From IMG/VR virus record IMGVR_UViG_3300025108_000221, positions 1 through 32,591 of that record: a DNA stretch of 32,591 nucleotides. One strand, 5' to 3'. Source of the DNA: a virus. Of this stretch, positions 8,649 to 28,194 are shown piece by piece. Below the pieces are notes generated by a model. The model ran no database searches. It was given only the letters and a program-made list of their open reading frames with translations, and had not been told where the DNA came from. A program made the position numbers and the translations under genes. The number at the start of each line of letters is the position of its first letter. Position 1 is the first letter of the stretch.

Positions 8649-8702
8649 CGGAATTAAATCACTCCATTTCAATCTGTATTTTAACGTATTATGTAGAGAA
8701 AG

Positions 8703-8924
8703 TCAATACGAACTTTCCTCTGCTCCATGGGCGGTTTCTTCTACTGCCTCATATGTTAAATCCTCAATACTATAATCAGTCTTCATAAAACCAACTATCG
8801 TATTGAGGATCTCCCAACTCTCTTTGAATTTATCCTCAGATAGATTATGCATTACACAATCACTCTTTAGATATATGTGAAAAACTTTATTGGTCCCAAT
8901 TTTTTCTGGGGAAAATTTTATCAT
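8703..8924 (-). CDS. hypothetical 73 aa protein
   Basis: The ORF begins MIKFSPEKIGTNKVFHIYLK and has a well-formed alpha/beta pattern, then NLSEDKFKESWEILNTIVGF, and an acidic C-terminus. It resembles a small conserved family I associate with marine T4-like phages. It is the first gene after the strong sigma70-like promoter at 9111-9140, with a leader of about 180 bases. Function unknown. Confidence 0.78.
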   Translation of the reverse strand: MIKFSPEKIGTNKVFHIYLKSDCVMHNLSEDKFKESWEILNTIVGFMKTDYSIEDLTYEAVEETAHGAEESSY

Positions 8925-9110
8925 AACTTTTTTTTACATCGTCGCTTTATATAGAACTCACGGGTACACACTTTTGTAGGTTAGGGTAGTAGAACGTTTT
9001 AAGGAAGGGGGGGTCCTTTATATTAACCTTACCTTACCTTAGGGGTACGCTACGCTCCGCGTTTCGCCATCATAAATCCGCCATAATACTGTCGAATTCA
9101 CAACACTGTA
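8925..9110 (-). other. non-coding leader between promoter and the 73 aa gene
   Basis: No ORF longer than about eight codons fits here on either strand. Features visible are a G7 tract inside a short inverted repeat (AAGGA and TCCTT, 9001-9018), three tandem CCTTA units near 9037-9051, a doubled TACGC near 9055-9063, and two overlapping mini-ORFs (MADL and MMAKRGA) on the minus strand. It would be the 5' leader of the transcript starting near 9104. No known riboswitch or tRNA pattern was recognised. Confidence 0.5.
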
Positions 9111-9140
9111 AGTATAGCACATGTGCCCCCTATGTGTCAA
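9111..9140 (-). promoter_or_regulatory. sigma70-type promoter (TTGACA-N18-TATACT)
   Basis: On the minus strand a perfect TTGACA is followed after 18 bases by TATACT. This matches the host housekeeping promoter consensus, so early transcription by unmodified host polymerase is expected. Transcription would start near 9104 and reach the 73 aa gene through a 180-base leader. It lies just after the 48 aa gene at 9172-9318. Confidence 0.75.
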
Positions 9141-9171
9141 ACAAAGAGGGCACTGTAAGATTCACATAGTA

Positions 9172-9318
9172 TCAGAAATCAATGGCGTTAAGTGTTCCCT
9201 CTGATGCCTCTGAGTTAGCGATAGATTGTGCCTCATCGGCAATCACATCGAGGATACTCAGAAGTTCTGCGCCAGTGTTACCCTGAGACAGCATACCAAG
9301 AAGAAGTTCGCGAGTCAT
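9172..9318 (-). CDS. hypothetical 48 aa protein
   Basis: The ORF reads MTRELLLGMLSQGNTGAELL and ends ANSEASEGTLNAIDF. The first 30 residues are a regular amphipathic helix pattern and the protein is acidic overall, with no Cys. I recall similar tiny acidic helical proteins in marine T4-like phages. It is preceded by a 90-base leader carrying copy 1 of the 29-bp promoter-like element, and by a sigma70-type promoter at 9477-9505, so it may have two promoters. Confidence 0.72.
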   Translation of the reverse strand: MTRELLLGMLSQGNTGAELLSILDVIADEAQSIANSEASEGTLNAIDF

Positions 9319-9409
9319 AATGAAGAAGAAAAATGTGAGTTAGTAAGTAGTTTAAAGTCATACTTAGGACTGTGTGTTAGTTGTTAGATAGTGTTGATTG
9401 CGTCCCTAC

Positions 9410-9438
9410 ACTATAGGGGAACTTTAGAGGTTACTAAC
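9410..9438 (-). promoter_or_regulatory. 29-bp promoter-like element, copy 1
   Basis: Minus strand: the invariant TTAGTAACCTCTAAA block, seven bases, then TATAGT. It is 92 bases upstream of the 48 aa gene, the longest leader of the ten copies. It lies downstream of a sigma70-type promoter on the same strand. Confidence 0.75.
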
Positions 9439-9476
9439 TTTAATACCCTGTTACTACCTCTCAGTCTTTCCCTTAT

Positions 9477-9505
9477 ATTGTAGCACCTATGTGACTCTGA
9501 GTCAA
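9477..9505 (-). promoter_or_regulatory. sigma70-type promoter (TTGACT-N17-TACAAT)
   Basis: On the minus strand TTGACT is followed by 17 bases and TACAAT. It would start transcription near 9470, upstream of copy 1 of the 29-bp element and the 48 aa gene. The -35 box overlaps the palindrome TGACTCTGAGTCA at 9492-9504, which could be an operator. It diverges from the plus-strand promoter at 9542. Confidence 0.65.
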
Positions 9506-9541
9506 GTGCAGTCCTGTGGGGGAAAAATGTTGCTGGCGCTG

Positions 9542-9570
9542 TTGACTTTTGAGAGTAAGTGTGATATACT
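9542..9570 (+). promoter_or_regulatory. plus-strand sigma70-type promoter (TTGACT-N17-TATACT)
   Basis: TTGACT, 17 bases, TATACT on the plus strand is near consensus. It is the only strong plus-strand promoter seen in a window whose genes are all on the minus strand. A transcript would begin near 9577 and run through the 34-bp repeats into the antisense of the 67 aa gene at 9834. The product may be a non-coding RNA, an origin primer, or a ten-codon peptide (MRVSRDLSNE). Confidence 0.65.
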
Positions 9571-9583
9571 GCGGTCTAAGACA

Positions 9584-9651
9584 ACAATAAGATCACAGGT
9601 TTCTAGGGACTTAAGTAACAATAAGAATGAGGGTTTCTAGGGACTTAAGTA
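9584..9651. repeat. 34-bp tandem direct repeat, two copies plus a degenerate third
   Basis: Two adjacent 34-base units begin ACAATAAGA and end GTTTCTAGGGACTTAAGTA (9584-9617 and 9618-9651), differing only in the middle six bases. A third, scrambled remnant (GGTTAAGTAAGGGTTTCT) follows to about 9683. Each unit contains the palindrome ACTTAAGT. Regular spacing beside an AT-rich block and a DnaA-like box makes iterons possible. Only two full units, so not a CRISPR array. Confidence 0.8.
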
Positions 9652-9833
9652 ATGAATAGCAAGAGGGTTAAGTAAGGGTTTCTCCACAGATTATAGTGAT
9701 TAAACCACATATAACCCCACCTTTTCAACAGGGTTGTGGAAAACAAACAAAACACACATATACATTTAAATTAACATTAATAAACGTTTTTTTAATGAAA
9801 ACATGCTATTTATGGGTGTTTTCAGGGTGTTAC

Positions 9834-10037
9834 TTAGGGATTCAAGTCAAACCAAGTCTGTGTATCATAGCAATCAATCACCTCTTCTTTGATGTCATCC
9901 ATTTCATAACCTTTGAGGTTTTCAACAATACTATCCACAGCAAGATTGATCAAATCATTCATATCTAACCCGTCTACAATCATCTCAGCATAACGTTGCT
10001 TAAGACCTTCAAGTTTTTCGGTTTGAGTGATAGTCAT
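9834..10037 (-). CDS. hypothetical 67 aa acidic protein
   Basis: The ORF MTITQTEKLEGLKQRYAEMI continues with a mostly helical, acidic sequence and ends TQTWFDLNP. It is the last gene of a chain in which each ATG overlaps the previous stop (ATGA): 115 aa, then 48 aa membrane peptide, then this gene. It therefore probably depends on copy 2 of the 29-bp element at 10548. No family recognised. Confidence 0.72.
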   Translation of the reverse strand: MTITQTEKLEGLKQRYAEMIVDGLDMNDLINLAVDSIVENLKGYEMDDIKEEVIDCYDTQTWFDLNP

Positions 10038-10180
10038 TGGATTACGTTTGAGGGTGGATTGAGTAGTCTTTCGAGTGCTTCATTTCTTTCATTGATTGTT
10101 TCTGTAAGATTACTATCTAACAGATCAATCATTAGATTAGCACCTAATATAATGAAGATAGCAAGGAAGATAAGTCTCAT
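10034..10180 (-). CDS. 48 aa single-pass membrane peptide
   Basis: The ORF reads MRLIFLAIFIILGANLMIDLL and then a charged tail (NERNEALERLL) ending NPPSNVIQ. Residues 3-20 form one hydrophobic segment, so a small inner-membrane protein is expected with a helical cytoplasmic or periplasmic tail. Both ends overlap neighbours by ATGA, strong evidence for translation. Function is unknown; small membrane peptides of phages often modify host envelope or exclude other phages, but nothing specific points that way. Confidence 0.68.
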   Translation of the reverse strand: MRLIFLAIFIILGANLMIDLLDSNLTETINERNEALERLLNPPSNVIQ

Positions 10181-10524
10181 GAAAAGATGTATCCGTTAGT
10201 GAATGTTTCGTTCTTAAATACTTTCTCTCCATTGATTGCACCTACGAAGAGTCTTACATACCATTGAAAGTTCTTTTGAAAGACTCCTTCTCCTCTCTCA
10301 CAAAATTCAGAACAAAGTGCATTGAGTCTAGACTTTGTTGTAGTTGATTGATAACCACCATCAAAGATTGTCATCGTATCATCAGTGACTTCTGCAATCT
10401 TGTTACCATGAAGACGGACGATTGAGGTTCCTGTTTCTTCATTGAAATGAACTGTTGTATTAGCATTAGACCAGTTCTTATTTGACTGGATTGCTTGACA
10501 CATTTGGGATTCGATTTTTCTCAT
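10177..10524 (-). CDS. conserved-type hypothetical protein, 115 aa
   Basis: The protein has an N-terminal helix (MRKIESQMCQAIQSNKNW), a beta section containing VRLHGNKIAEV, and the segment GGYQSTTTKSRLNALC. The GYxTxTTKxRLNAL motif is one I associate with a widespread small phage family of unknown function. It is the first gene after copy 2 of the 29-bp element, whose TATAGT lies 24 bases upstream, and its stop overlaps the next ATG. Confidence 0.8.
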   Translation of the reverse strand: MRKIESQMCQAIQSNKNWSNANTTVHFNEETGTSIVRLHGNKIAEVTDDTMTIFDGGYQSTTTKSRLNALCSEFCERGEGVFQKNFQWYVRLFVGAINGEKVFKNETFTNGYIFS

Positions 10525-10547
10525 AGTTGGTTTGAAGTGATGTCTAT

Positions 10548-10576
10548 ACTATAGAGGAACTTTAGAGGTTACTAAC
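10548..10576 (-). promoter_or_regulatory. 29-bp promoter-like element, copy 2
   Basis: The minus strand carries the invariant 15-base block and TATAGT. The -10 ends 24 bases before the 115 aa gene. The 3'-most part of the upstream 88 aa gene (stop at 10562) lies inside the element, so promoter and coding sequence overlap. Confidence 0.8.
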
Positions 10577-10828
10577 TTTAATACCGTCCTTTATGCAATC
10601 ATCAAGTATATCTCCAATCGTAGAATAGATGTAATCATGATCACCTAGTTCTGATAGAATGTTATCAACTAGAAACTTGTCTGATGATAAATCAATCTCA
10701 TCACCTTCATCATCATATTGTACTATATCTTCCTTTGTAAAGATGAATGCAGCACAGGTAGAATCATCACCTTGTGAATCAATCAAACTATTGATTCTTG
10801 TCTTGAGTTGTGATAGTGTATAATACAT
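10562..10828 (-). CDS. acidic hypothetical protein, 88 aa (paralogue of 14183-14446)
   Basis: The sequence has a helical start (MYYTLSQLKTRINSLID), a GDDSTCAAFIFTKEDI core, and an acidic end with DHDYIYSTIGDILDD. The 87 aa protein at 14183-14446 shows the same layout: GDTGPCAAWVITNDDL and DHDYIVDEILRVVDN. The shared GDxxxCAAxxxTxxD and DHDYI motifs indicate a duplicated gene in this region. Function is unknown. Confidence 0.78.
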   Translation of the reverse strand: MYYTLSQLKTRINSLIDSQGDDSTCAAFIFTKEDIVQYDDEGDEIDLSSDKFLVDNILSELGDHDYIYSTIGDILDDCIKDGIKVSNL

Positions 10829-10836
10829 TTTTTGAA

Positions 10837-10944
10837 TCAGAGTAGTTTTAGATAACCGTGTTCCACCATTAAATCAATGAACTTAACACATTGATTACCT
10901 GTTTCCATCTGAGAGAGATGATAATATACAGTTGAAAGTTTCAT
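10837..10944 (-). CDS. hypothetical 35 aa peptide
   Basis: The ORF MKLSTVYYHLSQMETGNQCV continues KFIDLMVEHGYLKLL. It fills the gap between two clear genes, with eight bases to the next start. The composition is normal for a folded small helical protein. Evidence is limited to position and coding-like composition. Confidence 0.5.
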   Translation of the reverse strand: MKLSTVYYHLSQMETGNQCVKFIDLMVEHGYLKLL

Positions 10945-10976
10945 AGTTGATTGTGATGATTGTGATGTGATTTGAA

Positions 10977-11165
10977 TCAGAAAGGGTTAGACCATGACTC
11001 ATATTTCTTCATGGTGATATAACCTTCTTTGCAAAGTTCATCAGTGAAGATACCCCATGCCTCTGCTTTTGCGATCCTATCAGTTGCTGTACTGGTGCCC
11101 ATAGTTGATGCTTTCCAGTTATATCGGAACTGCTCTAATGCTTGGACTTTGGTGATGTTTCTCAT
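10977..11165 (-). CDS. hypothetical 62 aa protein
   Basis: The ORF MRNITKVQALEQFRYNWK leads to a Thr/Ala-rich helical middle (TDRIAKAEAWGIFTDELC) and ends KYESWSNPF. Gene start lies 20 bases after the TATAGT of copy 3 of the 29-bp element. It is a typical small cyanophage-style gene with no recognised domain. Confidence 0.75.
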   Translation of the reverse strand: MRNITKVQALEQFRYNWKASTMGTSTATDRIAKAEAWGIFTDELCKEGYITMKKYESWSNPF

Positions 11166-11184
11166 GATTGATTGAAGTGCTTAC

Positions 11185-11213
11185 ACTATAGAGGATCTTT
11201 AGAGGTTACTAAC
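11185..11213 (-). promoter_or_regulatory. 29-bp promoter-like element, copy 3
   Basis: Minus strand: the 15-base block, GATCCTC, then TATAGT; 20 bases upstream of the 62 aa gene. The final bases of the HicA-like gene (stop at 11209) lie within the element. Confidence 0.8.
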
Positions 11214-11400
11214 AATAATGCTTTCTCTTGATTCTTTCTATCTGCTGTATAATATTCTTATAAGAACAGCGATCAGATGGTGTCTTTGATGTGACTATCC
11301 TTTCGTTAAGTTCTGGATTAAAATATACTTTATGTGTCTTCTGTCGTATTAAATGATAACCTTCGGATTGTAAATGTTTCGTGATTTGTAACTTCTTCAT
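11209..11400 (-). CDS. HicA/YcfA-like small protein, 63 aa
   Basis: The pattern is that of the HicA mRNA-interferase fold: an N-terminal helix (LQITKHLQSEGYHL), a beta hairpin containing a conserved-position His (IRQKTHKVYFNP, His23), a strand ERIVTSKTPSD, and a C-terminal helix (IIQQIERIKRK). HicA toxins use one catalytic His in a dsRBD-like fold. No HicB-like antitoxin is next to it; the upstream 76 aa gene overlaps by ATGA but lacks HicB motifs. It may be a solitary, repurposed RNA-binding domain. Confidence 0.5.
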   Translation of the reverse strand: MKKLQITKHLQSEGYHLIRQKTHKVYFNPELNERIVTSKTPSDRCSYKNIIQQIERIKRKHYC

Positions 11401-11627
11401 GCCTTATAATACTCCCCGATTGATTTACTCATAGCAATCAGTTGTTCATGAACTTCCTCAACTAATGCTTGAATATCATCTTCCTCTCCTAATAATGCCA
11501 TATGATCAACTTCATCCCAGTCTTCTACATTAATACTTCCATCATTATATTGTGGAGTATAGTATAGTGTGCCCTCACTATCAATTGAATAGGCACAACC
11601 GTGATCATCACAAGTTAATACAATCAT
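11397..11627 (-). CDS. acidic hypothetical protein, 76 aa
   Basis: ATG at 11627 is preferred because a strong GGAGG lies eight bases upstream, in the last codons of the previous gene; an upstream in-frame ATG at 11681 would overlap that gene by 50 bases. The protein starts MIVLTCDDHGCAYSIDSEGT and has an acidic helical second half (EEDDIQALVEEVHEQLIA). It overlaps the HicA-like gene by ATGA. It could be that gene's partner by position, but no antitoxin motif is seen. Confidence 0.7.
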   Translation of the reverse strand: MIVLTCDDHGCAYSIDSEGTLYYTPQYNDGSINVEDWDEVDHMALLGEEDDIQALVEEVHEQLIAMSKSIGEYYKA

Positions 11628-11631
11628 CTCA

Positions 11632-11814
11632 TTAACCTCCAAACATTTGATCAAATAGTGTCTGCCCTGAACGTTCATCATCGTTCATCTTTTGATGTTC
11701 TCGCATACAAGCAAGAAAGTTAATTTGTGCTTGAATGTCCTCAACCTCAGTGTTGAGTTTCTCTTTTCTGAAGTTTAACTCCATGATTGATTTGTTGATT
11801 TCAACTGTGTTCAT
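11632..11814 (-). CDS. coiled-coil hypothetical protein, 60 aa
   Basis: The ATG at 11814 gives MNTVEINKSIMELNFRKEKL, followed by LNTEVEDIQAQINFL, a heptad-like coiled coil across residues 5-45, ending TLFDQMFGG. The longer reading frame starts with TTG and overlaps the upstream gene, so the ATG is preferred. The stop is five bases from the next ATG. A small dimeric adaptor is plausible, without evidence of a target. Confidence 0.68.
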   Translation of the reverse strand: MNTVEINKSIMELNFRKEKLNTEVEDIQAQINFLACMREHQKMNDDERSGQTLFDQMFGG

Positions 11815-11855
11815 AGTTTTGAAAATAGTAAGATTGTTAAGTTGTTCTTTTAGAT

Positions 11856-12068
11856 TCAGTTTGATGCCTCCATGAATACATCGTAGAAGCAATCAAAGGC
11901 AGCAGGATCATGACAGAAAGACTTAATTCCTGCTTGATCAGCAACCCAGTCATATGCCATATCAATGTCGGCACCTGTCTCTAATACAAAGGATTGTAAC
12001 CCTTGAAGAGCATTTACGAAAGCAGAGTCGTTGAGAAGCATTTTTCTGTTGATTGTAGTTGTGTTCAT
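11856..12068 (-). CDS. hypothetical 70 aa protein
   Basis: The ORF reads MNTTTINRKMLLNDSAFVNAL and contains ADIDMAYDWVADQAG and a Cys/Phe-rich end (FDCFYDVFMEASN). The ATG is separated by one base from the TATAGT of copy 4 of the 29-bp element, so a leaderless message or a start at Met10 are the choices. No domain recognised. Confidence 0.7.
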   Translation of the reverse strand: MNTTTINRKMLLNDSAFVNALQGLQSFVLETGADIDMAYDWVADQAGIKSFCHDPAAFDCFYDVFMEASN

Positions 12069-12097
12069 ACTATAGGGGAACTTTAGAGGTTACTAAC
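12069..12097 (-). promoter_or_regulatory. 29-bp promoter-like element, copy 4
   Basis: The invariant block and TATAGT sit immediately before the ATG at 12068. If TATAGT is a -10, transcription would start inside the first codons. Confidence 0.78.
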
Positions 12098-12102
12098 AAT
12101 AA

Positions 12103-12270
12103 TCAAAATATATTCGTCCAGGCATAATGTTTGGCAGTGCTGATTCTTCCATCCTTAAGTAATCCATCACATACCTGACAAAATACTTCAAACTTCTGTA
12201 ATCGTGTTAGATTGTGATCAACGCCAGTTGCAGTTTGACCAACAACTTTGAGAACTTGTCCTTTGAGCAT
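12103..12270 (-). CDS. hypothetical 55 aa protein
   Basis: The ORF MLKGQVLKVVGQTATGVDHN leads to LTRLQKFEVFCQVCDGLLKD and ends AKHYAWTNIF. It fits exactly between the 70 aa gene at 12275 and copy 4 of the element. It is basic, with two close Cys residues (FCQVC). No function recognised. Confidence 0.65.
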   Translation of the reverse strand: MLKGQVLKVVGQTATGVDHNLTRLQKFEVFCQVCDGLLKDGRISTAKHYAWTNIF

Positions 12271-12274
12271 GATG

Positions 12275-12487
12275 TTACTTAGCAGTTACAATACGATGAT
12301 AACCTTGTTTTTTATGAAGATTTTTAATAGTTTTAACTTCATGAAGTTGGGTTAGAGTATAATCATAACCATCCTCATATTCAAGATACTTTGCATATTC
12401 AATCGCAGATAGTTCATCCTTGAAAATCATCATTGATTTGAAATCTTCGTTTTGGGAGTGATACCCACCGATGACAGAATAAAGCAT
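12275..12487 (-). CDS. hypothetical 70 aa protein
   Basis: The ORF begins MLYSVIGGYHSQNEDFKSMM, then FKDELSAIEYAKYLEYEDGYDY, and ends QGYHRIVTAK. The A-x-x-Y-A-K-Y-L pattern gives an alpha/beta layout common in small phage proteins. Four bases separate it from the downstream 55 aa gene. Function unknown. Confidence 0.72.
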   Translation of the reverse strand: MLYSVIGGYHSQNEDFKSMMIFKDELSAIEYAKYLEYEDGYDYTLTQLHEVKTIKNLHKKQGYHRIVTAK

Positions 12488-12516
12488 GATGTTAGTTAGT
12501 GTGAGTTGAGTAGGTG

Positions 12517-12669
12517 TTACTCAGGACGAAGTTTGACTGTAATAATCTCAAAGTTTGGATGTAATTCTTTGCATCTTGCATATGCTTCAGCAGCAGTTTC
12601 TCTCATATAAGAGAGCACATCGTGCATTTCTTTTTTGTTGTCGTAACCGTAGCAATTCCAGATAGGCAT
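12517..12669 (-). CDS. hypothetical 50 aa protein
   Basis: The ORF reads MPIWNCYGYDNKKEMHDVLS and MRETAAEAYARCKELHPNF, ending ITVKLRPE. Its helix-strand pattern (AAEAYARCKEL then EIITVKL) looks like a folded protein. It lies between the 70 aa and 90 aa genes on the same strand. Confidence 0.65.
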   Translation of the reverse strand: MPIWNCYGYDNKKEMHDVLSYMRETAAEAYARCKELHPNFEIITVKLRPE

Positions 12670-12705
12670 AATGTTAGATAGTAAGGGGTTAGATAGTGAG
12701 GGGAA

Positions 12706-12978
12706 TCACCCCACACATGCCATCGAACGATATACATTAGCAGGGATCTTGTCGGTGTGGTAGTCAGTAACCGTAGCGCCTCCAGCGATACGCTCTGCCC
12801 ACTCATTACGTGCTGTGAGTGCTGTCACTGTGGAATAAGACTGCTGTCCGTTAACACGAAAGGTGACACACTTAACAAAACGCTTAACGACAACTTTCAT
12901 GCCTTTGACTTCATCTGCCTCAGCAATGAATGCCTCAGGGAAGAAATCGACGATGGTGACGTTGTTTGTGAGTTGCAT
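12706..12978 (-). CDS. hypothetical 90 aa protein
   Basis: The protein starts MQLTNNVTIVDFFPEAFIAE and has a beta-rich middle (GMKVVVKRFVKCVTFRVNGQ), then ALTARNEWAERIAGGATVTD. No motif of a known enzyme was found. Its start is 21 bases after the TATAGT of copy 5. The G+C content appears higher than in neighbouring small genes. Confidence 0.72.
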   Translation of the reverse strand: MQLTNNVTIVDFFPEAFIAEADEVKGMKVVVKRFVKCVTFRVNGQQSYSTVTALTARNEWAERIAGGATVTDYHTDKIPANVYRSMACVG

Positions 12979-12998
12979 GTGGTTTGAGAAGTGCTTAC

Positions 12999-13027
12999 AC
13001 TATAGAGGATCTTTAGAGGTTACTAAC
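12999..13027 (-). promoter_or_regulatory. 29-bp promoter-like element, copy 5
   Basis: The 15-base block, GATCCTC and TATAGT lie between the stop of the ligase-like gene (13032) and the 90 aa gene, 21 bases from its ATG. Confidence 0.8.
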
Positions 13028-13031
13028 TTTA

Positions 13032-13919
13032 TTACCTATTGAACTTGCCCTCTGTGAAGTTTACATAACTGAAGACAGTACGGTTCACCAACTTGATCGC
13101 ACCTTCCTCACTCCAGTATACAAAACCCTCTCCTACAGTTTGTGTACCATCAGGAAGAAATGTATCAAAGTCAGAGTATACAATCATACTATCAATCACG
13201 TCCTCTTTGAGTTCTATCACCCACTGATATAAGTTTGTAAGATGTGGACAACGTAAGATAGTTGTGAGAACTCCATCATCTAACTCAACACCAGACTTGA
13301 TCAACTGATTGATTGCTTGCTTCGCACGATTTGCTTGCTTAGGTGATAGAAACTTTACTGTGTCTGTGTTGATGATAGGCGGTTCAATTTGTGATGCAAT
13401 ACGATCAACAATTGGCATCACAAACTTGACATGTGGAGTATCATCAAAGTTTGTACGAATCGGAAGCGGTGCAGCATCACATAGTTCGCCATCAATGTAA
13501 TACTTTGTGTGTGGTGCGATGACAAGTTTCTGATAAATCTTCTCTCCGAAGATATATGTTAGCGTGTTATTTGAAAATACTTCTGTTCTACCAAACCCAA
13601 GAAAATCACCCTGATATACACCATCAACGCGAGGCATATATTTCAGCATAAGATATAATATATCGGCAACATCATCTTGATGTCCAAAGTGTGTAAAGAT
13701 GTCCTCTGTTGTATAACATAGTCGAATCTTTTTCTTGTTAAATGCTGCTTTGGTGCAAACAAAAAACTTACCATTAGCAGGATTAGTCCCCCATACAACA
13801 GCAGGAGCACCATCCATCTTCAAACTAATATGATAAGCATTGCTATAAAGTGCATCAAAAATAGAAAGATCACCAGTCAAAATGGTGTCTTCTGCGTGTT
13901 CTAGGTGAGTGTTAGGCAT
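13032..13919 (-). CDS. ligase/nucleotidyltransferase-like protein, 295 aa
   Basis: The order of short motifs resembles the covalent nucleotidyltransferase superfamily (DNA and RNA ligases, capping enzymes): KMDGAPAVVWG at 34-44 matches motif I (KxDG, Lys34 being the candidate AMP-accepting residue), DGELCD at 143-148 or QGDFLGFG at 103-110 could be motif III, EGFVYW at 264-269 matches motif IV, and AIKLVN at 274-279 matches motif V. The N-terminal HLEH and the KAAFNKK segment are, as far as I recall, features of an uncharacterised marine-phage family. A role in sealing or repairing nucleic acid ends is inferred. Copy 6 of the 29-bp element abuts its ATG. Confidence 0.65.
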   Translation of the reverse strand: MPNTHLEHAEDTILTGDLSIFDALYSNAYHISLKMDGAPAVVWGTNPANGKFFVCTKAAFNKKKIRLCYTTEDIFTHFGHQDDVADILYLMLKYMPRVDGVYQGDFLGFGRTEVFSNNTLTYIFGEKIYQKLVIAPHTKYYIDGELCDAAPLPIRTNFDDTPHVKFVMPIVDRIASQIEPPIINTDTVKFLSPKQANRAKQAINQLIKSGVELDDGVLTTILRCPHLTNLYQWVIELKEDVIDSMIVYSDFDTFLPDGTQTVGEGFVYWSEEGAIKLVNRTVFSYVNFTEGKFNR

Positions 13920-13948
13920 ACTATAGAGGAAGTTTAGAGGTTACTAAT
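13920..13948 (-). promoter_or_regulatory. 29-bp promoter-like element, copy 6
   Basis: TATAGT directly touches the ATG of the ligase-like gene (TATAGTATG). The conserved HLEH start of that protein argues that this ATG is used. Confidence 0.8.
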
Positions 13949-13958
13949 AATAATTGAA

Positions 13959-14144
13959 TCACATTCCGTTCATATATTCATGAAGTTCAGCATAATACTG
14001 TTCTTCAGTCTCAAATGTGCGACCATGGATCACACATGGAAAAGTTTTCTTTTGAAACATTGTTGACGCAACTTCGCAGTCTTGTCGATCATAACCCATA
14101 GAGACTAGGTTTTCGACGTAAGGGTTGTTTGTAGTGTTATTCAT
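13959..14144 (-). CDS. hypothetical 61 aa protein with UBA-like N-terminus
   Basis: The ORF reads MNNTTNNPYVENLVSMGYDR, and the segment VENLVSMGYDRQDCEVASTM resembles a UBA-type three-helix bundle (MGY/F loop after a hydrophobic helix). The second half is HGRTFETEEQYYAELHEYMN. The similarity rests on a short pattern and could be coincidental. The ATG touches copy 7 of the 29-bp element. Confidence 0.65.
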   Translation of the reverse strand: MNNTTNNPYVENLVSMGYDRQDCEVASTMFQKKTFPCVIHGRTFETEEQYYAELHEYMNGM

Positions 14145-14173
14145 ACTACAGGGGAACTTTAGAGGTTACTAAC
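14145..14173 (-). promoter_or_regulatory. 29-bp promoter-like element, copy 7
   Basis: This copy has the same 15-base block but a TGTAGT in place of TATAGT. It directly precedes the 61 aa gene. Confidence 0.75.
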
Positions 14174-14182
14174 AATAATACC

Positions 14183-14446
14183 CTAGAATCCTCTCGTTGA
14201 TAGTTCATTATCAACAACTCTTAATATTTCATCAACGATATAATCATGGTCACTAGAGTTAATCTCTGTTAGAACCATTTTTGCTTCATTAGCAGCAAGT
14301 ATTACCTCTTTGTCACTATTATCATCTTCGGTCAATAAATCATCGTTCGTTATTACCCATGCTGCACATGGTCCAGTATCACCGTGCTTACGAATTAATG
14401 CCTTTACATAAGTATCAAGTTCGCGCAGTGTTCTACACTTTTTCAT
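14183..14446 (-). CDS. acidic hypothetical protein, 87 aa (paralogue of 10562-10828)
   Basis: The sequence MKKCRTLRELDTYVKALIRK precedes GDTGPCAAWVITNDDLL and SSDHDYIVDEILRVVD. These blocks match the 88 aa protein at 10562-10828 in order and spacing. Its ATG overlaps the stop of the 74 aa gene (ATGA), placing it third in the helicase operon. Function is unknown. Confidence 0.78.
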   Translation of the reverse strand: MKKCRTLRELDTYVKALIRKHGDTGPCAAWVITNDDLLTEDDNSDKEVILAANEAKMVLTEINSSDHDYIVDEILRVVDNELSTRGF

Positions 14447-14667
14447 TTCTTTCTCCGTTTCTTGTGTTTATCTATAAAGGCGATTGCTGATTGTCTGTTT
14501 CTACTCACCTTAATCACATTTGCTTGATGAATAATAGCAAGTTTAGTTGTGCTTCCAGCAACAGGAACAGCAGCATACATCATAGGGTCATCATAGTTTC
14601 CAATGATGAATCCTTCCTCGTATGGTTTAGCATCAAGCAAACTTGTCTTGGTATATGTTATCTTCAT
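14443..14667 (-). CDS. basic hypothetical protein, 74 aa
   Basis: The ORF starts MKITYTKTSLLDAKPYEEGF, then IIGNYDDPMMYAAVPVAGST, and ends IDKHKKRRKK. The C-terminal Lys/Arg cluster suggests nucleic-acid contact. It is coupled by ATGA overlap to the helicase upstream and to the 87 aa gene downstream, so it could act with the helicase. Confidence 0.75.
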   Translation of the reverse strand: MKITYTKTSLLDAKPYEEGFIIGNYDDPMMYAAVPVAGSTTKLAIIHQANVIKVSRNRQSAIAFIDKHKKRRKK

Positions 14668-15845
14668 CGGCGCACCACACTATCAAGAACTTCACCCTTT
14701 TCAAAAACGATGTCTACAACCCTTTGCAATGCTTTCTCGGTGGATATACCCACATTGCTGTAAACAGGCACACAGAGCATCCCAAAGGTCTTAGAATCGC
14801 TTCCACAACGTATTACACGACCCACAGTCTGAGTCATCTCAATCACATCCATGTTGCGTAGGAAAATGACTGCTTCCAACTCACTGACGTTGATACCCTC
14901 AGACAGAATAGAGCGATGAAGTACAACAAACTTCTTGTTAGTATCTTTGCCCCAAGCATTGAGAACTTCAAAGAATTTCTCACGAGATACTTTCTTACCA
15001 TCAACAATCGCACCAGTCTTGGATGTGATATAGAGGTAAGAGTATCCACGCTCTTTGAGGTCATCAGCAAAATCTGTCTGAAACAGATTGATAAGTTGTC
15101 TGCTAGTCTTGACACAAACAAGAATCTTCTTGATACTGATTTGATCAATAGTTTCCAACACATTGTTGCTTTCAATGTGTGGAGTCAGACTCTTTTTGTC
15201 GTGCTTGCCCATCTGAATCACCTTGACTTTAGGTGGCAAGATATATCCACCCTGAACAAGATTAGGTGCAGAAACTTTAGATATGATGTCCCCATAGACT
15301 TCTCTATCGTTCATTCCTGGTTTCTTGATAGTCACCGAGGTCTTGCGTGTTGCTGTGAAATAGTAGCAACGATCAGCACGACGAGAGAAATACTTTACAG
15401 ACTCATGAAAGTTACGTTGGACACTATTATGTGCTTCGTCAAAGTAAATCGTATCAACATCAATGTTTGCGTCTACAATACGATGCAAAGAGTGATATGT
15501 GGTGAAGATGATAACATGCTCACGCACTGTTTGACACATATCAACAAACAGTTTAATACGATCAGTCTTTGTAGTTTTGAAATGCTTAGTCTCACCACTA
15601 TGAACATGGAGGACGTTAGCATTAGTTACCTGCTCAAGAAAATCGTTGGAGAGTTGCTCGACTAACAAAATGCGAGGACACACAACAACAATGGTGCGAG
15701 GACTAGAGACTTCAAATCTCTTTACCGCATCCATAATTGCGACCAATGTCTTACCACCACCAGTGGGAAAGATACATTGACCAATAGAATTGGTTTGTAG
15801 TGCATTAAGTGCATCTTGCTGGTGAGGGCGAAGACTTACGGTCAT
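14664..15845 (-). CDS. superfamily 2 DEAH-type helicase, 393 aa
   Basis: All SF2 core motifs are visible: RPHQQDAL (Q-like, 6-13), motif I PTGGGKT (27-33), motif II DEAH (136-139), motif III FTATR (163-167), motif V LSEGINV (314-320) and motif VI QTVGRVIR (339-346). The compact two-RecA layout without large insertions resembles phage UvsW-type and restriction-helicase-like proteins. In T4, UvsW acts in recombination-dependent replication and fork repair; a similar role is inferred. It lacks an N-terminal UvsW DNA-binding domain. It starts 16 bases after copy 8 of the 29-bp element and leads a three-gene operon. Confidence 0.9.
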   Translation of the reverse strand: MTVSLRPHQQDALNALQTNSIGQCIFPTGGGKTLVAIMDAVKRFEVSSPRTIVVVCPRILLVEQLSNDFLEQVTNANVLHVHSGETKHFKTTKTDRIKLFVDMCQTVREHVIIFTTYHSLHRIVDANIDVDTIYFDEAHNSVQRNFHESVKYFSRRADRCYYFTATRKTSVTIKKPGMNDREVYGDIISKVSAPNLVQGGYILPPKVKVIQMGKHDKKSLTPHIESNNVLETIDQISIKKILVCVKTSRQLINLFQTDFADDLKERGYSYLYITSKTGAIVDGKKVSREKFFEVLNAWGKDTNKKFVVLHRSILSEGINVSELEAVIFLRNMDVIEMTQTVGRVIRCGSDSKTFGMLCVPVYSNVGISTEKALQRVVDIVFEKGEVLDSVVRR

Positions 15846-15860
15846 TAAGTTCGTTGCTGT

Positions 15861-15889
15861 ATTATAAGGGAGTTTTAGAGGTTACTAAC
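15861..15889 (-). promoter_or_regulatory. 29-bp promoter-like element, copy 8
   Basis: The 15-base block is intact and the -10 is a consensus TATAAT. It lies between the Dam-like gene and the helicase, 16 bases before the helicase ATG. The TATAAT here supports reading the right half of the element as a -10 box. Confidence 0.82.
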
Positions 15890-15891
15890 AA

Positions 15892-16743
15892 TTATATAAA
15901 ATGATTCTTGGTCTTGTATAACAATATCTCTCTTGCTTTCTTTGCTTCATATCCTGCTTCTGTTTTCTTTCTACGTCCCGCAGTGTAAGTGATATTAAAG
16001 TAATGGACATTCATTGACCTTGATTGATTATCAAACCAGTCATCATCAGCACGGTTAGCAACAAAAACTAAATTTTGCATATCGGCAAAGTCAAGAAGGT
16101 CTGACAGTGCATCATCACCAAATCCATTGCCATAATCAGCAAAACTATCACGATAGGGAGGATCAAAGAAGAAAAATCCATTCGGATCATTATTCACTGA
16201 ATCTTTCCAATCTCCTGTCTTGATAGTTACATTCTGAAGTGCATTGTGCCACCAGTTCAATACACCACGATCATAAACTTTATCCTTCTGATTCAACAAT
16301 CCAGCAGGAGTTCCATACCTTCCGTTGGTATTCTTGTTCAGTTGGTAGATACCATTGAACCCAGTCTTCATCAGGAAATATAATGTTGCTGCCTCAAATG
16401 TCTTGTTCCATTCTTTATACTCCCAACCGTGAAGATGTCTGATGTCAAAGTAAAACTTCTTACGATCATCTTTGCTCAGTGGTAGATACTGAGATTCAAG
16501 ACTATCCAGACGTTGTTGAAACTCTGTCAGGTTAGTCTTGATTGCTTTGTAGATGTTAACAACATCAGAGTTGATGTCATTAATCACAGCATTCTTTGGT
16601 TGGTAGGTGTTCATCACATAGACAAACATTGCCCCACCACCAAAGAATGGTTCATAGTAAGTTTCAAAGGAAGATGGCATAAAAGGTGCATAATGTTTTA
16701 GCACCTTTGTCTTACCACCTGCCCAGATAAACAGAGGTTTCAT
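15892..16743 (-). CDS. dam: Dam-type DNA adenine N6-methyltransferase (D12 class), 283 aa
   Basis: Motif X plus the SAM-binding start FIWAGGKTKVLKHY (5-18), EPFFGGGAMF (31-40) as motif I, and the catalytic DPPY (194-197) identify a D12-class alpha-type adenine methyltransferase. GFNGIYQLNKNTNGRYG (128-144) is the conserved target-recognition side, similar to Dam and T4 Dam, so GATC specificity is likely but unproven. Length equals Dam. It starts directly after the TGA of the 451-471 aa gene, which suggests coupled translation. It could protect phage DNA from host restriction or mark it for its own nuclease. Confidence 0.92.
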   Translation of the reverse strand: MKPLFIWAGGKTKVLKHYAPFMPSSFETYYEPFFGGGAMFVYVMNTYQPKNAVINDINSDVVNIYKAIKTNLTEFQQRLDSLESQYLPLSKDDRKKFYFDIRHLHGWEYKEWNKTFEAATLYFLMKTGFNGIYQLNKNTNGRYGTPAGLLNQKDKVYDRGVLNWWHNALQNVTIKTGDWKDSVNNDPNGFFFFDPPYRDSFADYGNGFGDDALSDLLDFADMQNLVFVANRADDDWFDNQSRSMNVHYFNITYTAGRRKKTEAGYEAKKAREILLYKTKNHFI

Positions 16744-18159
16744 TCAGTCTCTCACTTCATCGCAAGTTGTTCGCATGATGCTATATTTTCTATCGGGAGA
16801 TTTCTTAGCATCATTATAACAAAGATCTCCAAGATATTCAACATCGGACTCTGAAATCTGCTTTACTTCAGCATCAACAAATGAGCAGTTCATCATTTTA
16901 TCGATGTAACCAAGAATAATAGAAACGTATCTTTCTTGTTGATTAGGTTTATCTGAAATTTGATATGCTCTACCTTTTTCAGTAGTGAGTTCAGAAAATT
17001 GATTAAAAACACTATCTGTAAAAGAATAATCACCACGAAAGTGATGCAATCCCCTTGATTCTAGTGCTAACCATGTGCTTCCAGAAAAAACCCAAGTTTT
17101 CCAGTTTCTTTTATCTACGACAGAAAACTTTTGATTCTTCTTAGAAAGAACATTTCGATCAATACTAAAAAGTTCGCACCAGTAATCACATGCTTCTTGA
17201 TTTACTTTGCCAAACTCAGCATCAATAGACTTTAGAACTTTCTTCAAAGTTTCATTACCAACCCCATACTTTTTAGTGGCAAGCATTACTGCTTCAAAGT
17301 AAGGTCCAGTATGAGGATTTTCCTTATTTACAGAAAAAATATTATTAAGTTTTAACGAGTCGCACCACTTAATTTCATCCCTAAAAAGCATGATTGCTTC
17401 AGTTGCATCATACTTCTTCTTATTAATACAATAGAAAACTTTCCAAAGATGTTTCAAAGCAGTTGTAAACTTTGCTTCTACAAAATACTTCTGAGAAAGA
17501 TACTTTTTAAGACCAACAAAATTAATGATTCCTTGTGCTTTACACTTATTATTATCTACTGATGAAGAAGCATCAAACAAATCATATAATTCTTGATACT
17601 CAGTTGCTTGAGAATCAGGTTTCCAAAGATAAAAATTAAAAGTGATGCTATCAGTCGGTCTAAATTTTGCAAACTGTTCAGAGAAGTAAAGACTTCTTCG
17701 ACGATGGTAGTTTATCAAACAAAGTGCCCAAACAGGATAATATCGAACTACTTCTCCAGAGTTATTAAGTTTTTTAAGTTCTTCAACATTGGCACCAATA
17801 TGCACCACATTGCCAATACCCTTTACATATCCATTTTTATTGTGAGAAGAATATAAATCAGATGCCCACGATGTCATTTCTCCATCTTCATCATAGGTTT
17901 CATATCTTCTCTCTTTTGGACCTTCGTCAATCAAAAATCCAGAGTGAGTATTATCATCCTGTGCAAATAGCACATCCAGTGCTGCTTTGTTAGGAAGAGT
18001 TACTGTGTAAAAACAATCCCAGTTATTATTTTTCTCTGGATTGTTTGCATAAGTTTCCTGTGCCGCAGAGACAGCAGTCTCTACAAAAGTTTGTGCGTTC
18101 ATGATTACATTAGTTGTTAAGACAGTTATTGGGCAAATGCTTACTAACTGCGTTGACAT
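16744..18159 (-). CDS. unrecognised 471 aa protein (451 aa from the second start)
   Basis: No family was recognised. From the first ATG it begins MSTQLVSICPITVL; a second ATG at 18099 gives MNAQTFVETAVSAAQE. The promoter at 18165 would start transcription at or inside the first codon, so the second start may be used. The protein is hydrophilic with aromatic clusters (PVWALCLINYHRRRSLYFSEQFAKF, split here as a beta-rich core) and has no signal or membrane segment. The stop is joined to the Dam-like ATG. Co-transcription suggests a DNA-modification or counter-defence role, which is inference. Confidence 0.8.
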   Translation of the reverse strand: MSTQLVSICPITVLTTNVIMNAQTFVETAVSAAQETYANNPEKNNNWDCFYTVTLPNKAALDVLFAQDDNTHSGFLIDEGPKERRYETYDEDGEMTSWASDLYSSHNKNGYVKGIGNVVHIGANVEELKKLNNSGEVVRYYPVWALCLINYHRRRSLYFSEQFAKFRPTDSITFNFYLWKPDSQATEYQELYDLFDASSSVDNNKCKAQGIINFVGLKKYLSQKYFVEAKFTTALKHLWKVFYCINKKKYDATEAIMLFRDEIKWCDSLKLNNIFSVNKENPHTGPYFEAVMLATKKYGVGNETLKKVLKSIDAEFGKVNQEACDYWCELFSIDRNVLSKKNQKFSVVDKRNWKTWVFSGSTWLALESRGLHHFRGDYSFTDSVFNQFSELTTEKGRAYQISDKPNQQERYVSIILGYIDKMMNCSFVDAEVKQISESDVEYLGDLCYNDAKKSPDRKYSIMRTTCDEVRD

Positions 18160-18164
18160 TTTTA

Positions 18165-18193
18165 ATTATACAACTAGTTTGATTAGTTGTCAA
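18165..18193 (-). promoter_or_regulatory. consensus sigma70 promoter with palindromic spacer
   Basis: On the minus strand TTGACA, 17 bases and TATAAT form a perfect consensus promoter. The spacer contains a hyphenated palindrome, arms ACAACTA (18170-18176) and TAGTTGT (18184-18190), which overlaps the -35 end. This is a likely repressor operator. It drives the 471 aa gene and the Dam-like gene, and the ATG at 18159 is only five bases past the -10. Confidence 0.82.
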
Positions 18194-18196
18194 CCA

Positions 18197-19063
18197 TTAG
18201 ATATTTACATTAACATATCCATCAGCAATCGCTTGAGTATCACCACCACGTTTGAACTTTGGAGTAAACTTTAGATTGAGACTATCAATATTAGATGGAT
18301 CTGCTATATTGACAATTTCCATCGTCTTATCTTTGATATACATGATATTATCCCATTTGTCAACTTCTTTGTACTGCTTTAGGGCAAACTTTCCGACAGC
18401 AGTATTGAACTTTACAGGATCTTTGTAGTTCTTCTTTACATCTTCAACAAGTTGAGTAATATCACAACCAGGATAAAGTTCACTGAAGTAATCAAAATAA
18501 ACTTCAGGTTTTTCAACTGACTTTACATGTTCGGAGAACTTTTTAGCATCTTTATATCCTGGTGCATGTCCTTTAAAATACTTATCATTCAGTTTATCAA
18601 CTAAACCCTTATCAGTAACACCAGTTTTAATAGGTTTTAGACTTGCACCATTATCTTTCAACTCAGATTTTCTATTAGCACCATATCTACCATCATTATT
18701 GACAGAAAACTGGTAATCAGAAAAAATAAGAGGAAGAATCAACTCACCCTTGCCAATACCCTTTCCTTTGTTTGACAATAAGACTTCAAAGAGAAGAGGA
18801 AATATAATATCTCCCTTCAGTTTTTCTGGCACTAAATCCCACAATGACTTACGAAAATTAGTGCCTAAAATATCAGTGCTTGTAAGATTACTTTCATCTT
18901 CAAGTAAGGAGAGAGTATTCTCGGCATCACCATCAGTAACTACATCAAAATAACAAAGATATGCCTTAAAATCTTGACGAAACCTATCAGCAGCAACATG
19001 ACCTTTGATCCCTCTATTGATCAGTAAAGAATCTATTCTTTTTTCAAGATCTTTTGAGTACAT
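18197..19063 (-). CDS. hypothetical 288 aa protein with a possible PD-(D/E)XK-like motif
   Basis: ATG at 19063 (MYSKDLEKRIDSLLI) is preferred over a TTG two codons earlier. Around residues 100-145 the sequence GKGIGKGELILPLIF is followed by SVNNDGRY and SELKDNGASLKPI. This recalls the GxGE ... D ... ExK arrangement of PD-(D/E)XK nucleases, with Glu and Lys in SELK as candidate catalytic residues; the central Asp is not clear. The rest is Lys-rich and helical. The stop lies four bases before the promoter at 18193. It starts four bases after the stop of the 65 aa gene. Confidence 0.72.
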   Translation of the reverse strand: MYSKDLEKRIDSLLINRGIKGHVAADRFRQDFKAYLCYFDVVTDGDAENTLSLLEDESNLTSTDILGTNFRKSLWDLVPEKLKGDIIFPLLFEVLLSNKGKGIGKGELILPLIFSDYQFSVNNDGRYGANRKSELKDNGASLKPIKTGVTDKGLVDKLNDKYFKGHAPGYKDAKKFSEHVKSVEKPEVYFDYFSELYPGCDITQLVEDVKKNYKDPVKFNTAVGKFALKQYKEVDKWDNIMYIKDKTMEIVNIADPSNIDSLNLKFTPKFKRGGDTQAIADGYVNVNI

Positions 19064-19065
19064 AA

Positions 19066-19263
19066 TCAATAAGAATAGGTGGAGAGATTGCGAGCAGGGA
19101 CATGATAACCATTCTTAGGGTTATTCACATCAAAGACCCATACTAATTCATCATCGGATGCTTTGTAAACATCCATACAAAACATAGGAACAAGTTTTAC
19201 CATAAGAGCACCCCAGTGATACTCTGTTTCAAAATCAAATGTCATAAGATCAGAAGTGCTCAT
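19066..19263 (-). CDS. hypothetical 65 aa protein
   Basis: The ORF reads MSTSDLMTFDFETEYHWGAL, then VPMFCMDVYKASDDELVWVF, and ends ARNLSTYSY. It is beta-rich and acidic. The ATG follows one base after the TATAGT of copy 9. The next ATG is Met7, which would allow a short leader. It is followed closely by the 288 aa gene, which may share its transcript. Confidence 0.72.
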   Translation of the reverse strand: MSTSDLMTFDFETEYHWGALMVKLVPMFCMDVYKASDDELVWVFDVNNPKNGYHVPARNLSTYSY

Positions 19264-19292
19264 ACTATAGAGGAGTTTTAGAGGTTACTAAC
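19264..19292 (-). promoter_or_regulatory. 29-bp promoter-like element, copy 9
   Basis: The 15-base block, ACTCCTC and TATAGT directly precede the 65 aa gene. It is the upstream border of the Dam island. Confidence 0.8.
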
Positions 19293-19296
19293 TTTA

Positions 19297-19461
19297 TTAG
19301 TCACAGATTGGACGCACAGAGTTAATAATAACCTTTTCGGCAGGATACATTGATTCCACCAAATCTTCAATGAAAGAACGTTCAGAGCGGTCAGATTCTA
19401 TGTTGAAGTTGTGACGGCGACCGCGTGAGTCAATCCAAGCACCAGAACAATCGTAATACAT
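19297..19461 (-). CDS. hypothetical 54 aa protein
   Basis: The ORF MYYDCSGAWIDSRGRRHNFN continues with an acidic helix (SERSFIEDLVESMYP) and a strand (EKVIINSVRPICD). This looks like a small alpha/beta protein. It lies upstream of copy 9 and 39 bases downstream of the 126 aa gene. Confidence 0.7.
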   Translation of the reverse strand: MYYDCSGAWIDSRGRRHNFNIESDRSERSFIEDLVESMYPAEKVIINSVRPICD

Positions 19462-19499
19462 TTTTGTTAGTTAGTAAAGAGAATAAAGATAAAAGTATA

Positions 19500-19880
19500 T
19501 TATCCGTTACACCATCCCATAATCTCACAACCTGGGTCAGATAACATTTCTTCTTTGATGCCATTTGCTTTACATACTTCCCAATCTTCATAAGTACAAT
19601 CACGAAGATACTTTCCATCCTTATCATGTACTGAGGCATATTGTGAGATGTAAAAGTCCCACTTAAATCCCTTATCTCTCATCTCTAAATCTTCATCATC
19701 ATTCCAAATATCCCAATCAATTGCTTCAACATCTTCCTCTGATAATCCATATTTCTTCAAGCATTCATCAGTCAACCACAAATAACCAGAGTGATTCTGG
19801 TCCCAATTGTAATACTCACCATCAACCTCATCTAACATATCAAGGTCAGATTGTTCTGTCAAATCATACTCATGCGCCAT
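19500..19880 (-). CDS. acidic Trp-rich hypothetical protein, 126 aa
   Basis: The ATG at 19880 (MAHEYDLTEQSDLDMLDEVD) has AGAGGG seven bases upstream and is preferred over an ATG nine codons earlier. The protein is strongly acidic with seven or so Trp residues (YYNWDQ, YLWLTD, IDWDIWND, WDFYIS, YEDWEVC, MGWC). Strongly acidic phage proteins sometimes mimic DNA or inhibit host enzymes; there is no direct evidence here. It overlaps the 58 aa gene by 11 bases. Confidence 0.78.
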   Translation of the reverse strand: MAHEYDLTEQSDLDMLDEVDGEYYNWDQNHSGYLWLTDECLKKYGLSEEDVEAIDWDIWNDDEDLEMRDKGFKWDFYISQYASVHDKDGKYLRDCTYEDWEVCKANGIKEEMLSDPGCEIMGWCNG

Positions 19881-20046
19881 GATTGTCCCTCTCGTTAAGT
19901 GTCTCATTGATAATGTCCTTGAGTTCCTGACGTTCTTCTGGTGTGAAGATAGTACGTTTCTTTACAGGCATAGGGGGAAACTTTCGATTTGAGATAAAGT
20001 TACCACTACCAGGCAAACTCATGCCTTGAGTATCAATTTTGTCCAT
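19870..20046 (-). CDS. hypothetical 58 aa protein
   Basis: The ORF reads MDKIDTQGMSLPGSGNFISN, then KFPPMPVKKRTIFTPEERQE, and ends LNERDNHGA. The N-terminal half looks disordered and the C-terminal half is a charged helix. Its stop overlaps the start of the 126 aa acidic gene, so the pair is probably co-translated. Confidence 0.65.
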   Translation of the reverse strand: MDKIDTQGMSLPGSGNFISNRKFPPMPVKKRTIFTPEERQELKDIINETLNERDNHGA

Positions 20047-20053
20047 GAATATG

Positions 20054-20266
20054 TCAAGCAGCAGGTGCTTCAGTTGATGCTTTGCCTACGTTAGAAGGAC
20101 CAACCCAAACAAGGTTATTCTCCTTCCAATATGTTACAAATGCACGACGAAGTTCAGTCAGTTCAGTATAACGTGACTGCTGCTCTTTAGTATAAGAGAA
20201 GTTTTGTGTGCGCCATACCTTACGCAGTTCCTGAAGTTCGCGGAGCACTTGTGAAGAGTTGTTCAT
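20054..20266 (-). CDS. hypothetical 70 aa protein
   Basis: The ORF starts MNNSSQVLRELQELRKVWRT and has a helical hairpin-like pattern, then TYWKENNLVWVGPSNVGKAS. I recall similar short helical proteins from marine T4-like phages. Its start is 18 bases after copy 10 of the 29-bp element. Function unknown. Confidence 0.75.
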   Translation of the reverse strand: MNNSSQVLRELQELRKVWRTQNFSYTKEQQSRYTELTELRRAFVTYWKENNLVWVGPSNVGKASTEAPAA

Positions 20267-20283
20267 GTTGTCGTGTGTCTTAC

Positions 20284-20312
20284 ACTACAGAGGAACTTTA
20301 GAGGTTACTAAC
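20284..20312 (-). promoter_or_regulatory. 29-bp promoter-like element, copy 10
   Basis: The 15-base block, seven bases and TGTAGT lie between the stop of the 181 aa capsid-targeted gene and the 70 aa gene. This is the highest-coordinate copy seen. Confidence 0.78.
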
Positions 20313-20313
20313 T

Positions 20314-20859
20314 TTAACTACCAGGAAGTGCCTTGCGTTGAGGTGCAGCATTGAGTGCAGTTCTTACAGGTGAACTACTCAAACTCTTACGTTCTGGAGA
20401 TGAACCTAACTGTGGAGATGCTTTCTTACCTTTCATAAGATCAGGTCTTTGTGCTGTACCTAATTGGGGTCTAAAAGACGCTGTAGCAGGTCTTTTAACA
20501 GCAGGTTGAGGTTTACTTACCTTTGCGATTGCACCACCCTTAGAGGATGATTTATCAGCAGGTTTTGAACTTCTATATGGTTGAGGTTTTCTTGATTGTG
20601 TAGAACCTGCCGTATTCTGTCCAGCATTCTTTACTTCTTGCCCAGCATTCTTGGCAATGTTTTGCTTCTCTTTAGGCGTTGCCTTCCTACCTTTCTTTTT
20701 ATTATCTCCAGAACCTAAACTTAAACCAAGTCTAGGTCTTTCTCTGAAAGGTTTAGTTGAACCACCTTGAGTTCCTGACTGTGGTGTAGAACCACTGCCG
20801 TAACTTGTCTGTGTTTGTTGTTCAATTGCTTCGCTAAAAAACTCTTGGAATGTCTTCAT
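20314..20859 (-). CDS. basic protein with T4-type capsid-targeting N-terminus, 181 aa
   Basis: The N-terminus MKTFQEFFSEAIEQQ closely matches the capsid-targeting sequence of T4 internal proteins (which begin MKTYQEFIAE), so packaging into the prohead and trimming by the gp21-type protease are likely. The rest is disordered and rich in Lys, Arg, Ser, Gly, Pro and Gln (for example RKPQPYRSSKPADKSSSKGG) with repeated PQLG and ARP blocks. T4 internal proteins are injected with DNA and can block host nucleases; that role here is inference. The ATG overlaps the stop of the 207 aa relative. Confidence 0.78.
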   Translation of the reverse strand: MKTFQEFFSEAIEQQTQTSYGSGSTPQSGTQGGSTKPFRERPRLGLSLGSGDNKKKGRKATPKEKQNIAKNAGQEVKNAGQNTAGSTQSRKPQPYRSSKPADKSSSKGGAIAKVSKPQPAVKRPATASFRPQLGTAQRPDLMKGKKASPQLGSSPERKSLSSSPVRTALNAAPQRKALPGS

Positions 20860-27451: not shown

Positions 27452-27468
27452 TGGTATATCTTTTTAGT

Positions 27469-28179: not shown

Positions 28180-28194
28180 TATTATCTTTTTAGT

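Follow-up and report, generated by a model that had tools for sequence, protein, structure and literature searches.

A DNA element that recurs ten times in the IMG/VR record IMGVR_UViG_3300025108_000221 is likely to be a phage-specific promoter, recognized mainly through a 15-bp block and starting transcription at the purine directly after a TATAGT hexamer. The stretch analyzed (the window) is this entire record of 32,591 bases and is a piece of a T4-like cyanophage genome, a group that is among the commonest marine viruses. The window's proteins include the T4-type baseplate wedge subunits gp6 and gp25 together with other cyanophage families, and in a gp6 tree it clusters with the phages SynMITS9220M01, P-TIM68 and RB11-B (support 96/94). 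The element-bearing region has DNA similarity to Synechococcus and Prochlorococcus phages and to a few marine records. The copies sit in a small-gene region adjoining gp25-gp6, which Doron et al. 2016 reportedly treat as an early region in Syn9. Each copy would drive one or a few small early-region genes in one clade of T4-like cyanophages. Hereafter, class B denotes this element and class A a dyad element found in sister phages.

Architecture and distribution of the element

Positions are numbered from the first T of the 15-base block (p1). The block matches TTAGTAACCTCTAAA exactly at ten places in the window, all on the minus strand, as a preliminary description of this DNA had reported; the plus strand holds no exact copy, and the only other match at three or fewer mismatches is a single plus-strand site with three. 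No dinucleotide shuffle reached 11 matches (0 of 100). After a constant spacing of seven bases the block is followed by TATAGT (n = 7), TGTAGT (n = 2) or TATAAT (n = 1), again in agreement with the earlier account. The further claim that every copy lies directly 5' of a minus-strand gene holds for nine copies, each followed by an open reading frame (ORF), but not for the tenth (block start at 9437), where the next ATG is at p77 and a 48-amino-acid ORF lies ~90 nt on.

Conservation extends beyond the 29 bp originally proposed, in the 5' direction (AWTAWWG) and the 3' direction (RTRA), to give an element of about 39 bp. We aligned 149 copies taken from the window and from contigs with several copies, a set seeded with the 15-mer alone and demanding no purine at p29. 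Conservation spans p-6 to p32, the layout reads AWTAWWG, TTAGTAACCTCTAAA, a weak GTKNCCC, T-A/G-TAGT and R T R A, and 99% of these copies have a purine at p29. A second alignment, for which a separate scan supplied 373 copies of the TTACTCACC type, has the same layout with the block altered to TTACTCACCTCYAAA; the seed pattern demanded a purine at p29, and the 100% purine found there is therefore partly by construction. The block reads TTASTNACCTCYAAA in all copies of both alignments.

Among complete genomes, SynMITS9220M01 has 11 copies, P-TIM68 has 12, along with two look-alikes at other places, and RB11-B has 14 pattern matches; in each, the element is confined to a single cluster within the syntenic small-gene region and to the strand of its genes. 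S-B05, S-B43 and RN05-S likewise carry it, and Syn9, S-CAM8, S-RIM2 and ACG-2014f have at most one match each. Scans of IMG/VR yielded at least 119 and at least 120 stretches with matches; in the first scan, lone matches of the bare 15-mer in viral contigs were largely due to chance, with the downstream half missing. A search of 84,980 bacterial and archaeal genomes gave no match to the fuller element pattern, and we found no description of the block motif in the open-access literature. These data support the earlier view of a phage-specific, strand-specific, promoter-like element before small early-region genes, and make a co-regulated gene set plausible.

The block is near-invariant inside a genome and changes in concert between genomes (TTAGTAACC, TTAGTTACC and TTACTCACC), which suggests a specific reader evolving alongside it. 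Two symmetries emphasized in the preliminary description, the near-palindrome GTTAGTAAC and an 11-bp direct repeat of CTCTAWAGT, are real in the window but are not kept in relatives: SynMITS9220M01 and RB11-B have the block form TTACTCACC, so the near-palindrome is lost, and the repeat reads CTCYAAATG/CACTATAGT in RB11-B, with TTGAYNTANTAAT as the downstream half in P-TIM68. We dropped both as functional features because they are not conserved. One variant, TTACTCACCTCC (elements L128 and L139), contains TCACCTCC, which is also found at the 3' terminus of bacterial 16S rRNA as the anti-Shine-Dalgarno sequence; this likeness is probably coincidence.

Start codons and the predicted 5' end of the mRNA

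Many class B copies have an ATG at p29, immediately after TATAGT. Transcription from a -10 box at TATAGT would begin past this ATG, and for this reason we determined for each position whether an ATG shares the reading frame of the downstream gene. In a first set of 275 elements representing 75 protein families, the frame was shared by 30 of 78 ATGs at p15, p24 and p27, approximately the third expected by chance, compared to 63 of 68 ATGs at p29 (21 of 23 families). A second, separately fetched set gave 22 of 62 for p15-p27 and 128 of 132 for p29 (28 of 31 families), so that the pooled values were 52/140 and 191/200. Fisher's exact P values for p29 versus upstream ATGs were 2e-12 and 5e-21 in the first and second sets, but since element copies are related, the family counts are the safer guide. 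GTG is avoided at p29 (8 observed versus 64 expected, with only one of the eight in frame), and start codons elsewhere are scarce from p32 to p42 and become abundant abruptly from p44.

Based on these patterns, ribosomes appear to see RNA from p29 on and not upstream. Because ATGs at p29 are kept in frame and those upstream are random, we place the mRNA 5' end at p29, with leaders that appear to be either zero or about 15 nt and longer. Genes would then begin exactly at p29 (5'-AUG, leaderless) or ~15 or more nt further 3', and a quarter to a third of the copies would yield leaderless mRNAs. Relative to this start, the element would comprise AWTAWWG at -35 to -29, TTASTNACCTCYAAA at -28 to -14, a GC-leaning GTKNCCC at -13 to -7, TATAGT at -6 to -1 and a +1 purine within RTRA. 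The earlier assignment of TATAGT as a -10 box, with starts ~10 bases 3' of it, is therefore probably wrong, and the block moves from about -36 to -21 to the predicted -28 to -14. The ten copies in the window, with coordinates (spanning p-6 to p32), strand and predicted start, are as follows.

20280-20317, minus strand: copy with block 20297-20311 and predicted +1 at 20283 (G); ORF 20054-20266 has its start codon at p46.
19260-19297, minus strand: copy with block 19277-19291 and predicted +1 at 19263 (A), where ORF 19066-19263 opens with an in-frame ATG; a second in-frame ATG lies at p47, where PHROG 12800 begins.
15857-15894, minus strand: TATAAT variant with block 15874-15888 and predicted +1 at 15860 (A); start at p44, helicase ORF 14664-15845.
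14141-14178, minus strand: TGTAGT variant with block 14158-14172 and predicted +1 at 14144 (A), where ORF 13959-14144 (PHROG 649) begins with its start ATG; the next ATG after p29 comes only at p74.
13916-13953, minus strand: copy with block 13933-13947 and predicted +1 at 13919 (A), where ORF 13032-13919 (DUF6267) begins with its start ATG; the next in-frame start after p29 is a TTG at p68.
12995-13032, minus strand: copy with block 13012-13026 and predicted +1 at 12998 (G); start codon at p49, ORF 12706-12978.
12065-12102, minus strand: copy with block 12082-12096 and predicted +1 at 12068 (A), where ORF 11856-12068 opens with an in-frame ATG; a second in-frame ATG lies at p56.
11181-11218, minus strand: copy with block 11198-11212 and predicted +1 at 11184 (G); start codon at p48, ORF 10977-11165.
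10544-10581, minus strand: copy with block 10561-10575 and predicted +1 at 10547 (A); start at p52, ORF 10177-10524 (Kyano_Gp96).
9406-9443, minus strand: copy with block 9423-9437 and predicted +1 at 9409 (G); no start before p77, nearest ORF 9172-9318.

Homologous proteins support N-termini that begin at p29. Members of PHROG 649 in relatives without the promoter at this place start with MTTNNPYV, compared to MNNTTNNPYV in the window, and the family aligns from residue 1; in the DUF6267 protein, conservation begins at residue 1 to 3. At the position of the 9437 copy, three relatives (L042, L055 and L119) have an ATG ~20 nt past the predicted start, and the gene after this copy in the window (9172-9437, minus strand) seems to have been lost or moved. 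Near this last copy, a 34-bp direct tandem repeat (9583-9650, two copies 85% alike) occupies sequence with no clear genes.

Comparison with sister phages and known promoter systems

Class A served as a control for the placement of the start. It combines a dyad, GTGNCA-N10-TGKCAC, with a downstream TTGCAA-like -35 and, in many cases, an extended -10, TGNTATACT, and is found before small early genes in the syntenic region of Syn9, P-TIM40, S-PM2, S-RIM2, S-CAM8, S-ShM2 and ACG-2014d/e/f. Class A sets were built from strict patterns, a broad pattern having mostly matched inside genes. Counted from the end of the -10, start codons lie at the seventh base or at bases 21-28, and bases 7-8 are purine-T in 10 of 11 strict promoters; taking base 7 as the start, leaders are 0 or 14-21 nt long. 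A class B start at p29, rather than p35, gives leaders that match these values, which argues for p29. In the class A early regions L130/L131, L132-L138, L361 and L363 the dyad is repeated just 5' of the TTGCAA/TGNTATACT promoter, some copies having a leaderless-type ATG at the expected start.

Syn9 and P-TIM40, the phages with published early transcription, both carry class A. An early-gene regulatory element was reportedly described in these two T4-like cyanophages by Doron et al. 2016 in ISME J, and we infer that the class A dyad is this element. Both classes are repeated, phage-specific and located before small genes in the same region beside gp25-gp6, with leaderless or ~14-21-nt leaders and purine-T at the predicted start. 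They differ in that Syn9, P-TIM40, S-PM2, S-RIM2 and ACG-2014f have the dyad and sigma-70-like TTGCAA/TGNTATACT but not the class B block. We rejected identity of the two elements: the block matches the Syn9 genome only once, by chance, and has no match in the early region of P-TIM40. Phage-specific early promoters are a known kind, of which class B would be a second, sequence-unrelated class.

With the start at p29, on which this reading hinges, positions -12 to -7 would read TKNCCC and would contain no sigma-70 -10 box, so that recognition would come mainly from the 15-bp block. Within 8600-21000, a sigma-70 -35/-10 consensus matched 57 times, and none of these matches uses a copy's TATAGT. 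A full 12/12 sigma-70 site (TTGACA, 17 bases, TATAAT) lies at 18193-18165 on the minus strand, five bases before the ATG of ORF 16744-18159 (471 amino acids, no clear family), the mRNA of which is probably leaderless. Because TATAAT is separated from the ATG by five bases there, TATAGT directly abutting ATG is not the ordinary leaderless layout.

The window's own genome is incomplete, and the presence of trans-acting factors was judged from SynMITS9220M01, P-TIM68 and RB11-B. Class B resembles T4 middle promoters, which depend on MotA and AsiA, in having a many-copy phage motif in place of the -35 and near the start, but the sequence is different and a -10 properly spaced from the predicted start is missing. 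The MotA box is WWTGCTTYA near -30 and is ruled out by the block, TTASTNACCTCYAAA in all copies. T4-like cyanophages are not known to encode MotA, AsiA and other T4 take-over proteins. PF09114 and PF09010 (MotA/AsiA) had no match in the three relatives, T4 being positive in the same searches, in line with the preliminary description, which had excluded a MotA box. T7-type promoters are also long near-invariant repeats with a TATA and a conserved start purine, but their invariant part spans -17 to -1 rather than -28 to -14. We rejected a T7-type polymerase promoter because no polymerase gene (PF00940) was found in the three complete relatives (P-SSP7 control in the same search, 3e-69).

T4-type late promoters (gp55, TATAAATA) are likewise AT-rich, gp55-like sigma factors occur in these phages, and the block contains CTAAA. 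The TCTAAAGT would nevertheless sit ~6 bases too far upstream of the predicted start, where -13 to -6 reads GTKNCCCT instead of a TATAAATA-like box (a comparison that again hinges on this start), and the 15-bp block is no part of late promoters. The window has separate CTAAATA sites before tail-fibre genes. Sites of the CTAAATAACTAAAAA type, similar to T4-like late promoters, lie on the minus strand at 27451-27475, 28179-28203, 30496-30520, 31903-31925 and 32270-32290, before tail-fibre-like genes. Glycine-rich, repeat-rich tail-fibre-like ORFs with GGT/CCACCACC repeats are found at 25871-26827 and 30627-31278. A different sigma factor was also discarded as the distinguishing factor, since class A and class B genomes alike gave only gp55-like matches, with a single additional match in ACG-2014f.

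Alternative explanations and implications

The main competitor, which is the reading of the preliminary description and which we consider unlikely, is a sigma-70 promoter with an activator, in which TATAGT is the -10, the block replaces the -35 and transcription starts near A35. TATAGT matches TATAAT at five of six bases with constant spacing, and p34-p35 is often CA, a good initiator seven bases past the hexamer. However, the ATGs at p29, in frame in 191 of 200 cases, would lie upstream of such a start, with frames random just before them; the A at p24, the base most needed in a -10, is G (TGTAGT) in 17-23% of copies; and leaders would be as short as 9 nt, compared to 0 or 14-21 nt in the control class. 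Genes with a p29 ATG would then have to be translated from read-through mRNAs.

It is improbable, in our assessment, that the element is instead an RNA signal in long early mRNAs, either an endonuclease cut at T28/R29 or a translation start signal other than Shine-Dalgarno. In its favour, the start-codon pattern fixes only mature 5' ends and the copies lie between tightly packed same-strand genes. Against it, a translation signal should act at a fixed distance from the start codon, but starts fall into two modes (at p29, or from p44 onward); the short symmetrical GTTAGTAAC is not kept in relatives; and sister phages have, at the syntenic position, elements that show features of sigma-70 promoters. 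Modular small genes of variable order between phages border the element, as would be expected of a recombination or gene-shuffling cassette boundary, a non-transcriptional role that we regard as very improbable given the strict gene orientation, the start-codon coupling and the purine-T at the predicted start. Promoters are also repeated between modular small genes in the PeSL (promoter-stem-loop) cassettes of T4-type phages (cited in PMC4503421), but class B copies in the window have no stem-loop terminators beside them.

Several points weigh against a promoter starting at p29. In 33 of 43 cases, an in-frame ATG at p29 is followed by another by p75, and because about three-quarters of these genes have a later in-frame ATG, only a minority must start at p29. 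TATAGT does resemble a -10 box, and the A at p35 (77%) fits a start seven bases later. RNA processing at p28/p29 would give the same start-codon pattern, and only 11 strict class A promoters were aligned as controls. Read-through mRNAs from upstream copies could allow translation of p29 starts, but the same transcripts would make the p15 ATGs accessible as well, and those are not kept in frame. A comparison of gene content yielded 31 candidates that three class B phages share and four class A phages lack; most are tail-fibre or unknown proteins, and one is an endonuclease VII-like zinc protein. None of the 31 was convincing as a trans-acting factor, since class B is a clade whose members have much in common by descent.

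If class B is a promoter starting at p29, its likeliest reader would be a phage-encoded or virion-carried protein that recruits host RNA polymerase. The reader would have to be injected or host-derived if the genes are transcribed before phage protein synthesis; otherwise, the element would represent a slightly later class. We tentatively suggest, as a possibility somewhat short of probable, that this clade swapped sigma-70-type early promoters for one without a -10 box, in which a phage-encoded or injected factor reads the invariant 15-bp block at -28 to -14, fixes the start at the base following TATAGT and gives rise to many leaderless mRNAs.

Testing whether ATGs are in frame offers a simple means of finding transcript starts from sequence only, one that can be applied to other uncultured phages. 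If the p29 starts are true, class B would be a promoter without the -10 box on which bacterial RNA polymerase ordinarily depends. A second early promoter class confined to one clade would mean that the early switch has been exchanged wholesale, in which case the factor should differ too, narrowing the search for it.

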